From the NCBI RefSeq assembly GCF_001263415.1, contig NZ_LGTE01000028.1, positions 1-36,844 on the forward strand: 36,844 nucleotides of DNA, read 5' to 3'. Positions 13,066 to 36,669 of the stretch are shown here, one piece after another. Both the position numbers and the translations under genes were made by a program. The notes under the pieces are model-generated. The model did no database searches, was not told where the DNA came from, and saw only the letters and a list, made by a program, of their open reading frames with translations. Positions within the stretch are counted from its first letter, which is position 1. Every line of letters begins with the position of its first letter. Source of the DNA: Thermincola ferriacetica (GTDB taxonomy: Bacteria; Bacillota; Thermincolia; Thermincolales; Thermincolaceae).

Positions 13066-14679
13066 TTGCCCAAAGGTTACCTTGCTTTGGTTCTCCACGC
13101 TCACTTGCCTTATGTCAGGCACCCTGAACATGAAAATTTTTTGGAAGAGAAATGGTTATACGAAGCTATTACCGAGTGTTACGTCCCTTTAATCAATGTC
13201 TTTGATTCTTTACTCGAAGACGGGGTTGATTTTCGCCTGACAATGTCAATAACGCCCCCACTCCTATGTATGCTTAATGATGATTTACTGAAAGAAAGAT
13301 ACCGTAAATATATCCTGAAGCTTTTGGAACTGGCCAAAAAAGAAGTTGTCCGGACCAGAAATGACCGAAGTTTTAACCGGTTGGCCAAAATGTATGTCGA
13401 TTTCTTCAGCAGGGTCTATGAAACCTATGCCAACAAATACCATGGCAACCTGATCAGCGCCTATAAAAAATTTCAGGACCTGGGCAAGCTAGAAATCATT
13501 ACCTGCGGCGCTACCCACGGTTTCTTCCCTCTACTGGGCATTCACCGGGAAGCTATCCGGGCCCAGGTAGGCATTGCCGTAGACAATTACTGGCAATTCT
13601 TCGGCAGGCCGCCAAAAGGCATTTGGCTGCCCGAGTGCGGATATAATCCGGGGGATGATTATATATTAGACGAATTCGGGATTAAATATTTCTTCGTCGA
13701 CACCCACGGGGTCATGAATGCCTCCGTCCGGCCCAAATACGGTGTTTTCGCACCGATATACTGTCCTTCGGGTGTGGCCGCCTTCGGGCGGGATATGGAA
13801 ACGTCAAAACAGGTCTGGAGTATGCACGAAGGTTATCCAGGGGATTTTAATTACCGGGAATTTTACCGGGATATCGGTTATGACCTGGATTTTGACTACG
13901 TTAAACCATATATCCACCCTGACGGCATCAGGACCCATACAGGCATCAAATATTATAAAATCACGGGCAAAACAGATTACAAAGAACCTTACAACCCTGA
14001 TGTCGCCCTGGCCAAAGCGGCAGAACACGCAGGAAACTTTATGTTTAACCGGGAACGGCAAATCGAATATCTGGCCGAAATCATGGACCGCAAACCCATT
14101 GTGGTTTCACCTTATGACGCCGAACTGTTCGGGCACTGGTGGTACGAAGGACCGCAGTGGTTAAATTTCCTGATCCGAAAAATTGCTTACGATACCGACA
14201 TTTTCAAACTCATTACACCCAGCGAATACTTAACAGAATACCCCTGCAACCAGGTAGCCGTGCCTTCCATGTCCAGTTGGGGGTACAAGGGCTATAATGA
14301 GGTCTGGCTGGAAAGCAGCAATCACTGGATCTACCGCCACCTGCATAAATGCGCAGAGAGGATGATAGAACTGGCCAATATGTTTCCCGATGCCGGCGGC
14401 GATCTGCGCAGAGCTCTTAATCAGGCTGCCAGGGAATTGCTGCTGGCGCAAAGCAGCGACTGGGCTTTTATCATGAAAACAGGGACCATGGTGGGATATG
14501 CAGTGAAACGAACCAAGCTGCATATTCACAATTTTCTTTCACTATACGAAGATATCAAATGGAATAAAATTAACCCCCATTGGCTGAAAGAACTGGAAGA
14601 CAAAAACAACATCTTCCCCGACATTGATTACAGGTATTACGCCTCTCAACAGCAGCTATCTTCAGCTACGGAAAGGTAG
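13066..14679 (+). CDS. GH57 1,4-alpha-glucan branching enzyme
   Basis: A 537-residue glycoside hydrolase family 57 enzyme with DUF1957 features. GYLALVLHAHLPYVRHPE opens the catalytic barrel. The nucleophile Glu in WLPECGYNPG (about residue 190) and the acid/base Asp in SPYDAELFGHWW (about residue 351) are at the positions seen in characterised GH57 branching enzymes. It transfers alpha-1,4 glucan segments to make alpha-1,6 branches in glycogen. Start: an ATG at 13057 overlaps the ribosome binding site AAAGGA (13052-13057), while the in-frame TTG at 13066 lies 8 nt after it and gives the family's usual short N-terminus, so TTG is chosen. It is cotranscribed with DUF4912 and converges on the nucleotidyltransferase gene. 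Confidence 0.92.
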   Translation: MPKGYLALVLHAHLPYVRHPEHENFLEEKWLYEAITECYVPLINVFDSLLEDGVDFRLTMSITPPLLCMLNDDLLKERYRKYILKLLELAKKEVVRTRNDRSFNRLAKMYVDFFSRVYETYANKYHGNLISAYKKFQDLGKLEIITCGATHGFFPLLGIHREAIRAQVGIAVDNYWQFFGRPPKGIWLPECGYNPGDDYILDEFGIKYFFVDTHGVMNASVRPKYGVFAPIYCPSGVAAFGRDMETSKQVWSMHEGYPGDFNYREFYRDIGYDLDFDYVKPYIHPDGIRTHTGIKYYKITGKTDYKEPYNPDVALAKAAEHAGNFMFNRERQIEYLAEIMDRKPIVVSPYDAELFGHWWYEGPQWLNFLIRKIAYDTDIFKLITPSEYLTEYPCNQVAVPSMSSWGYKGYNEVWLESSNHWIYRHLHKCAERMIELANMFPDAGGDLRRALNQAARELLLAQSSDWAFIMKTGTMVGYAVKRTKLHIHNFLSLYEDIKWNKINPHWLKELEDKNNIFPDIDYRYYASQQQLSSATER

Positions 14680-14834
14680 ATGGGGTTCTCATGCTACCGT
14701 TTAGGAGCAACTGCGCCCGCAGAACCGGTTGTTTTACCTCTACAGCGGTGGTTACCGGAACTTCTGGCAAGGTTTTGCAGCACAAGCTCCGTGGTAGTGG
14801 AGGACCCCACCTACCCCTTCAATACCCTCCCTTA

Positions 14835-20176: not shown

Positions 20177-20275
20177 TTTTTCGGCAGCCTGGCAATCATA
20201 GAATAATGACCACTGAACACCATTCCGTAGACCCATGGCTTTGTGTCCTTATCTTTCGATAAGTTTACCCTTTTC
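20177..20275 (-). ncRNA. c-di-GMP-I (GEMM) riboswitch aptamer
   Basis: On the minus strand the order is GGGTAAAC, a hairpin TTATC-GAAA-GATAA, GGACACAAAGCC, GGGTCTACGG, a variable hairpin, and then TTGCCAGGCTGCCGAA. These are the conserved blocks of GEMM-I RNAs, including the GAAA tetraloop. The GGG before TAAAC is the c-di-GMP form rather than the cGAMP variant, which differs there; I hold that point less firmly. A terminator follows directly, then the lipoprotein gene. It should switch transcription by attenuation when c-di-GMP is bound. Confidence 0.92.
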
Positions 20276-20414
20276 ACCAAGAAATTTTTAATTTTTAATG
20301 CTTAATTCTTGATTTATCATGTTCTACCGACAAGTAGATTTTTCCTGCACATCCGTTGCATTTTGGCAAAAATAGTACCCTGGCATTAGGACTATAGCAC
20401 TAGTAATTTTTTCC

Positions 20415-20443: not shown

Positions 20444-20465
20444 ATTTTTGAAATTAAACATGAAT

Positions 20466-20543
20466 AAATACTCGTATATCTTTGAGAATATGGCTCAAAA
20501 GTTTCTACCGGGCGACCGTAAATTGCCCGACTACGAGTGAAAC
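20466..20543 (+). ncRNA. Purine riboswitch (guanine class)
   Basis: P1 pairs ACTCGTA (20470-20476) with TACGAGT (20532-20538). P2 uses TTTGAG/CTCAAA and P3 uses CGGGC/GCCCG. The junction strings TATGGC, GTTTCTACC and CCGTAAAT match the family. The specificity base in GACTACG is C, which selects guanine, hypoxanthine or xanthine rather than adenine. It sits before the BMP lipoprotein and xpt operon, the expected target. The 3' side of P1 (GAGTGAAAC) is complementary to GTTTTCACTC inside the terminator, giving a clear antiterminator. Confidence 0.95.
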
Positions 20544-20600
20544 AATCCACCATTATATATTGGTTCAGTTCTTTTAGAACTGGCATCTAGGGCAATCCGG

Positions 20601-35616: not shown

Positions 35617-35934
35617 ATGGTCAAAGCAAAAATCAACTCCGGCGCCTGTGGCTTTGAAACAACAGTCCAGGCAGAAGCCGGCCCCGACTATCTGGCCGGC
35701 GTAAAAATCACCAGCGGCTGCCAGCACATAAACAAAATGGCAGAAAAACTGGGCACCCTGAACGTCATGAGCGAACTGTTCAAAAAAGGGGAATCACAGG
35801 TTTTAGCCGCGGCTAAAGAAATCCTGCCTCACCTTACCTGCCCGGTTCCCATTGGTATTCTAAAGGCAATTGAAGCCAGCGCGGGCATGGCTCTACCTAA
35901 AGATGTAACTATTACTTTGGCAAAGGGCGAATAA
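35617..35934 (+). CDS. Conserved small Cys-containing protein (DUF6951-like)
   Basis: A 105-residue protein beginning MVKAKINSGACGFETTVQAE, with SGCQHINKMAEKLG near 33-46 and HLTCPVPIGILKAIEASAGM near 72-91, then ALPKDVTITLAKGE. Three cysteines in conserved contexts (ACGF, SGCQH, LTCPVP) suggest a metal or cofactor site. It resembles the DUF6951 family of anaerobic bacteria and archaea, as I recall it; the function is unknown. AAGGAGG lies 8 nt before the ATG, and its promoter is strong, so it is probably well expressed. It stands as a single gene. Confidence 0.82.
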   Translation: MVKAKINSGACGFETTVQAEAGPDYLAGVKITSGCQHINKMAEKLGTLNVMSELFKKGESQVLAAAKEILPHLTCPVPIGILKAIEASAGMALPKDVTITLAKGE

Positions 35935-35962
35935 AGGGTGGGTGAGGTGGCCCGGCTACCCC

Positions 35963-36029
35963 GGAGCTTGGTGCTGGAGAATGGCGGCAGGGTAGGAGGG
36001 TGTCTCCGCTACCTGGGAGCTTGGTGCTG
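35963..36029 (+). repeat. Pair of 14-nt direct repeats
   Basis: GGAGCTTGGTGCTG occurs at 35963-35976 and again at 36016-36029, 53 nt apart. Similarity continues on the left (GGCTACCCC versus CGCTACCTG). It may be a small tandem duplication. Confidence 0.6.
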
Positions 36030-36146
36030 CAAACCCTGGCCGTTCAGGCAGCGTTCCCGAACTCGATGGCTCATGTTGCATTTCTAATAAGTCAGGCCGC
36101 CTCCCGTCCGGTCACTCAGCATATGTTGCGTGCCGCAGATAGGAAA

Positions 36147-36266
36147 AGGGGAGGTTAAATGATTCCTCCGCTCCGGGCGAAATCTCCATCGGATAACTGC
36201 TCCCGCTTACGCGGCCCGCGGACCGATGGACGATTTAAGCCCCGCTCCGGAAAACATTTAACCTCC
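36147..36266. repeat. Nested palindrome with GGAGGTTAAATG ends
   Basis: GGAGGTTAAATG (36150-36161) pairs with CATTTAACCTCC (36255-36266). Inside, GGGCGAAATC pairs with GATTTAAGCCC, and CCATCGG (36186-36192) pairs with CCGATGG (36223-36229). The left 15 nt equal those of the hairpin at 35436. It could be a small mobile repeat or a structured RNA. Confidence 0.65.
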
Positions 36267-36325
36267 TTTATCAACATCCCGGGGCGCCCTATATAAGTTG
36301 AGTGCCGGACTTCCCGGCGGCCTTC

Positions 36326-36391
36326 GCCATCTTCGAACATGCGGGAACCCCCTGCCTGCCCGGCTGCGGTTTTGCGGGCGCAGTCGCTCCC
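36326..36391 (+). pseudogene. Second copy of the ferredoxin-tail scrap
   Basis: The frame reads AIFEHAGTPCLPGCGFAGAVAPKR and then a stop. It matches AIFKHAGTPCLFVCGFTGTV at 27492-27559, with an identical 16-nt core AACATGCGGGAACCCC. The rest of the gene is absent. It shows that the same sequence was copied to two places about 9 kb apart. Confidence 0.55.
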
Positions 36392-36449
36392 AAACGGTAG
36401 GCGGAAAACCCTGCCCACCCTGCAGGGTATGAGGAAAAGTAGCCGCTGC

Positions 36450-36654
36450 CCGGTGAAACAATAAGTTGCGACCTGGCGGAGGGCAGATAGCCGGTGTTGA
36501 CGACAGTGAGGGCTTGAAATCACTGTTTCCGGCATGGACGCCGGAAACCCGGCCATTGAGTCAGGACGACGATTTGGCCGGGTTCAGTGATTTCAACCGA
36601 GCGGAGTTTACACCGGCTCTGCCCGTAGCCCCGGAGCAACGGTTGTTTCACCGG
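36450..36654. repeat. 205-nt nested Y-shaped palindrome
   Basis: CCGGTGAAACAA (36450-36461) pairs with TTGTTTCACCGG (36643-36654). GTTGC pairs with GCAAC, GGGCAGA (36481-36487) with TCTGCCC (36618-36624), GCCGGTGT with ACACCGGC, and TTGAAATCACTG (36514-36525) with CAGTGATTTCAA (36585-36596). The tip splits into two hairpins: GTTTCCGGC/GCCGGAAAC (36525-36548) and ACCCGGCC/GGCCGGGT (36547-36583). It resembles a MITE-like element or a three-way-junction RNA. No known RNA family is recognised. Confidence 0.7.
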
Positions 36655-36669
36655 AAGATCGGCCAAGCC

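Follow-up and report, generated by a model that had tools for sequence, protein, structure and literature searches.

In Gammaproteobacteria, the RNAs CsrB and RsmZ titrate the regulator protein CsrA. A second kind of element to be considered here comprises the palindromes of the ERIC, REP and MITE types, which share with the element described below a high copy number, an intergenic location, a long imperfect palindrome and modular insertions and losses. A 2010 survey reported the TwoAYGGAY motif (Rfam RF01731) as a probable RNA and gave it a score by which a cis-regulatory role is improbable (PMC2864571). Gardner and Eldai found a match between it and a CsrA-binding motif and, on the basis of loop similarity, proposed CsrA-binding sRNAs in Clostridia, with validation then pending and CsrA decoy RNAs described as identified only in Gammaproteobacteria (PMC4333381). 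The idea of a CsrA decoy is thus already published (2014/15), without validation there, and no later test of TwoAYGGAY function was found in the open-access literature. In Rfam, RF01731 is placed in the same clan as RsmY (CL00106).

Identification of a TwoAYGGAY element in Thermincola ferriacetica

The window, i.e., the whole 36,844-nt stretch of T. ferriacetica DNA analyzed, contains close to its 3' end a nested palindrome that a first-pass annotation, made from the sequence alone, had placed at 36450-36654 and described as being of unknown kind. All the stems it listed (12, 7, 8 and 12 bp, with hairpins of 9 and 8 bp) were found in the sequence. The outermost stem of 12 bp pairs CCGGTGAAACAA (36450-36461) with TTGTTTCACCGG (36643-36654) and is followed inwards by stems of 7 bp (GGGCAGA/TCTGCCC), 8 bp (GCCGGTGT/ACACCGGC) and 12 bp (TTGAAATCACTG/CAGTGATTTCAA), and then by two apical hairpins of 9 bp (GTTTCCGGC-ATGGAC-GCCGGAAAC) and 8 bp (CCCGGCCA...TGGCCGGG). 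Hairpin 2 overlaps the longest form of hairpin 1 by three bases (AAC), and its loop in the window copy has five bases, one having been lost relative to the hexaloop (ACGGAU/AUGGAC) that most copies carry. The minimum free energy of this stretch is -130.2 kcal/mol, against -77.9 +/- 4.5 kcal/mol in dinucleotide-shuffled sequences (z = -11.7; 0 of 200 shuffles as low), in agreement with the earlier view that such nesting is not due to chance. The element is therefore real, and its conserved extent is slightly longer on both sides than first annotated (Table 1).

No Rfam match was obtained at the window element at the gathering threshold, because this copy scores 37.8 bits against a threshold of 43. 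Among the matches listed, seven other copies in the same genome exceed this cut-off (44.2-49.1 bits), and homologues from sister genera reach up to 53.0 bits. The element consists of two adjacent hairpins with AYGGAY-type loops carried on one long stem, as in the described family (PMC2864571; PMC4333381), and matches the complete model of 168 positions. We are highly confident that it is a diverged copy of RF01731 TwoAYGGAY, present here as a strongly multiplied dispersed palindrome; the statement that no known family applies does not hold, since the window copy is a sub-threshold member whose sister copies pass. Several features set it apart from the Rfam description: the outer arms reach past the ends of the model, show strong covariation and occur also in a second palindromic repeat; about 21 intact copies are present together with decayed ones; and the window copy has a sub-threshold score.

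Table 1. Coordinates in the window of the TwoAYGGAY element and its parts
Feature	Coordinates	Strand	Basis
Entire element (TwoAYGGAY RNA plus outer arms reaching beyond the Rfam model)	36442..36663	+	21 full copies aligned; covariation; match 1-223 of the covariance model built from the copies at exactly these coordinates
Rfam RF01731 TwoAYGGAY match	36474..36631	+	37.8 bits, E 1.2e-4; model 1-168 complete; gathering score 43
5' outer arm	36442..36463	+	Sequence varies among copies, yet pairs with own 3' arm
3' outer arm	36640..36663	+	Copy comparison; covariation
Apical hairpin 1, putative CsrA site	36525..36548	+	Hexaloop AUGGAC (36534-36539), C-G closure
Apical hairpin 2, putative second CsrA site	36546..36584	+	Loop AGGAC (36563-36567) in GUC/GAC stem

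Copies in the genome and distribution of homologues

A search for further copies, already proposed in the first-pass annotation, was done on the 3.18 Mb of the own genome (78 contigs). BLAST revealed 53 places matching the window element. Twenty-one full-length copies could be aligned, partial copies and copies with a replaced tip are also present, and a pattern search allowing up to three mismatches detected 36 sites with the core motif. Among the 32 core sites within fetched loci, the pattern recognized both loops in 21, one loop in 2 and neither in 9, four of these last being cut off by contig ends. The genome thus contains about 21 intact and over ten damaged TwoAYGGAY sites. One copy lacks exactly hairpin 1 (L037) and another exactly hairpin 2 (L044), and in five copies (L038, L040, L041, L042 and L047) the tip is swapped for an unrelated insert. 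The own copies share a mean similarity of 85%, compared with 44% to copies of the sister family, which indicates that they multiplied after the split or were homogenized. Since copies without intact tips have also spread, spreading does not depend on CsrA binding.

In L038, L040, L041 and L047, and in part in L051 and L053, the tip insert measures ~150-200 bp and carries the inverted motifs CCACAGAG...CTCTGTGG. These tip-less derivatives are themselves repeated.

Homologues outside this genome were found solely with covariance models, after BLAST and patterns had given none. BLAST of the element in 60 relatives and a pattern with up to three mismatches in 398 genomes of the phylum returned the own genome only, and sequence patterns gave no match in genome-contig and viral-contig collections. 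The nearest named genomes, several Firmicutes MAGs among them, have a GatB similarity of 73-74% at the amino acid level. Of the 9 further genomes from the order, 6 contain full-length matches to the model built from the own copies (lowest E 6e-16), and these matches share the loop and junction motifs with the own copies. As this model also matches the reverse strand of the own copies, the homologues could have been generic long palindromes; this suspicion was dropped because both GGA loops and the flanking motifs were aligned and the independent Rfam model agreed. RF01731 itself was detected in 18 of 119 genomes, with at least two matches in 15 of the 18, and was absent from all 14 control genomes.

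Covariation of the stems and conservation of the GGA loops

The first-pass annotation had also suggested looking for compensatory changes, and these support a shared structure. In a plain MAFFT alignment of the own copies, made without reference to the structure, pairing is seen in 97.6% of cells and both-side changes occur in 21 of 79 pairs. Double-change cells number 75, whereas shuffles give 20.7 +/- 4.5 and none of 500 reaches 75. When the partners are slid by 1-3 columns, 29-43% of cells pair and no more than 8 carry double changes. The outer arms are the most variable part among copies and still match within each copy. When 31 sequences from different species were aligned with the structure as a guide, and hence with a bias towards pairing, 94% of cells paired versus 36-41% in slid controls. 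On the AYGGAY strand, G-U pairs exceed A-C mismatches (46 versus 20 cells, or 31 versus 20 without one constitutive pair), a hint of an RNA made from this strand, though one too weak to be relied upon. Covariation alone is no proof of RNA function, because template-switch correction between the arms could also yield paired changes in the stems.

Conservation of the loops is an argument for RNA function that is independent of stem covariation. Loop 1 reads AYGGAC in all 20 own copies that have hairpin 1; loop 2 reads AYGGAY in 17 of 21 copies and the one-base-shorter A-GGAY in the other four, including the window copy, so that GGA is retained in 20/20 loops 1 and 21/21 loops 2. Other families carry AAGGAU or AGGGAU in the equivalent C-G-closed position, and across families GGA is constant while the stem sequences vary. 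A fixed GGA with a free second loop base fits the expectation for CsrA sites (ANGGA). With many dispersed copies and terminal inverted repeats on the one hand and a structured, loop-bearing fold on the other, both the MITE-like and the RNA-like character noticed in the first-pass annotation are upheld. To read the element simply as a MITE would leave part of it unexplained, since its fold and its apical GGA loops, unlike the stem sequences, are kept across genera and families.

Genomic context of the element

The window element lies about 500 bp downstream from a gene with a DUF6951 domain (Pfam) and is followed by a convergent reading frame. All 24 own copies examined are intergenic. With neighbors taken from simple codon-usage gene calls, none of the 17 own copies with both neighbors called lies between two divergent genes, and all 17 have at least one gene ending toward the element. 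The element is antisense to the upstream gene in 6 of these 17 copies and, among 17 copies from relatives for which an upstream gene was called, in 9. Neither the window nor 17 relatives showed a sigma-70-like promoter above chance, and no terminator was recognized, the element being devoid of a U-tract terminator; read-through transcription is therefore an assumption.

Two species of one sister genus carry the element at an orthologous locus (L174 and L162). Between them the element is the best-conserved stretch of the locus, with 93.2% identity against 83-84% downstream, 53-70% upstream and 84-87% in the immediate palindromic flanks, a pattern consistent with purifying selection. Conversion from other copies could add to this identity; the uncommon loop ACGGAA, present in both, speaks against it.

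A candidate decoy for CsrA

The genome encodes one CsrA of 85 aa (PF02599, 79.9 bits), whose translation has L4 and R44, the RNA-contact residues, and csrA lies beside reading frames that we take to encode FliW and flagellin. Among genomes of at least 90% completeness, CsrA is present in all 16 that are positive for RF01731 versus 75 of 106 overall (hypergeometric p 0.0023, a value that ignores kinship across 9 families, CsrA being common anyway). In the sole RF01731-positive genome lacking CsrA (G007), completeness is 75% and the match is marginal.

These data are best explained by a TwoAYGGAY RNA that exists as a dispersed palindromic repeat and acts as a CsrA-titrating decoy, a reading to which we give a probability of roughly 0.6. 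The element would be transcribed from the + strand, perhaps by read-through from neighboring genes, and the long nested stem would end in a three-way junction bearing two hairpins side by side. With a C-G-closed GGA loop on each hairpin, a single CsrA homodimer could occupy the two loops, and roughly two dozen intact copies could jointly titrate CsrA away from its mRNAs, in addition to the action of FliW. We are moderately confident of this role, CsrA binding and titration being predicted from the sequence. Points against it are the negative promoter and terminator searches, the sub-threshold score and 5-nt second loop of the window copy, and the spread of copies whose tips are not intact. As in CsrB, CsrC, RsmX, RsmY and RsmZ (clan CL00106), GGA is found in hairpin loops paired in a manner suited to a CsrA dimer. 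Those RNAs have many sites and are encoded by one to a few genes, whereas here each RNA would have two sites and the genome has many copies; the likeness would lie in the way of working as a decoy rather than in sequence. The earlier proposal for Clostridia is now joined by evidence from compensatory changes in the stems, from loops conserved across families, from the presence of CsrA in the same genomes and from an element conserved at an orthologous locus, which makes it directly testable.

With its long outer arms and its nesting with other repeats, the element resembles a mobile palindrome more than it does an ordinary sRNA gene. Its occurrence in so many dispersed copies invites the question of whether a regulatory sponge is able to spread in the manner of a mobile element. 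A self-spreading palindrome with CsrA-binding tips might itself be the sponge, CsrA being buffered by a decoy whose strength follows from genome copy number, an extension that we put forward tentatively. The same observations could reflect a non-autonomous mobile palindrome of MITE, ERIC or REP type in which the GGA loops are incidental and the stems are kept as a transposition substrate or through template-switch correction between the arms. Dozens of intergenic copies with inverted termini, modular tips with precise hairpin losses and five replacements, outer arms common to another repeat family and three Y1 transposase genes in the genome are consistent with such an origin. Neither pairing nor arm correction would keep the loops, however, and these are the best-kept letters across families; an orthologous copy is moreover conserved in place between two species. 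No consistent or recognizable target-site duplication was found in the flanks of the 21 own copies, and none of the three Y1_Tnp genes has element sequence within about 1.5 kb. Unlike ERIC, REP and MITE palindromes, the element combines cross-family conservation of its apical loops with the lack of a recognized target duplication or linked transposase, and we regard a mobile palindrome with incidental loops as unlikely. Assignment to the RAYT-linked REP elements is not supported, as none of the three Y1 genes is flanked by the element within that distance.

A cis-acting RNA of the neighboring gene, such as a 3' UTR stability element, attenuator or terminator, would agree with the Rfam type label of RF01731 ('Cis-reg') and with the orientation of the neighboring genes at the 17 own copies, at least one of which ends toward the element in each case. 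It is nevertheless improbable, given that the neighbors differ among copies, that the element frequently has an antisense orientation relative to the gene upstream and has no U-tract terminator, and that the 2010 survey came to the opposite score (PMC2864571). A structured RNA binding a protein other than CsrA through its AYGGAY loops would be compatible with the open-access literature, in which no test of RF01731 function was found, and with a CsrA co-occurrence that is just moderately significant. The loop sequence, C-G closure and two-site pairing match described CsrA/RsmA sites, which makes another partner very improbable.

Neighboring repeats and riboswitches

A second dispersed repeat, with 68 BLAST places in the genome, occupies positions 35934-36440 of the window. 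Its 507 nt fold into one very large nested palindrome (-247 kcal/mol), in the middle of which lies another palindrome (about 36151-36265). It contains no GGA hexaloop, and its outer arms at other loci are those of the TwoAYGGAY element. A further composite copy of this repeat family, with a single TTGTTTTACCTCTACAGCGGT arm mid-way, is located at 14660-14823. Elsewhere in the genome (L050:200-900, - strand), four tandem units of the 3' outer arm CAACGGTTGTTTCACCGGTGCAGCGGC are separated by 11-nt spacers, as though arms had been added through successive nested insertions. The window also carries a c-di-GMP-I riboswitch (20180-20279, - strand) and a purine riboswitch (20452-20553, + strand), arranged back to back and 172 bp apart.
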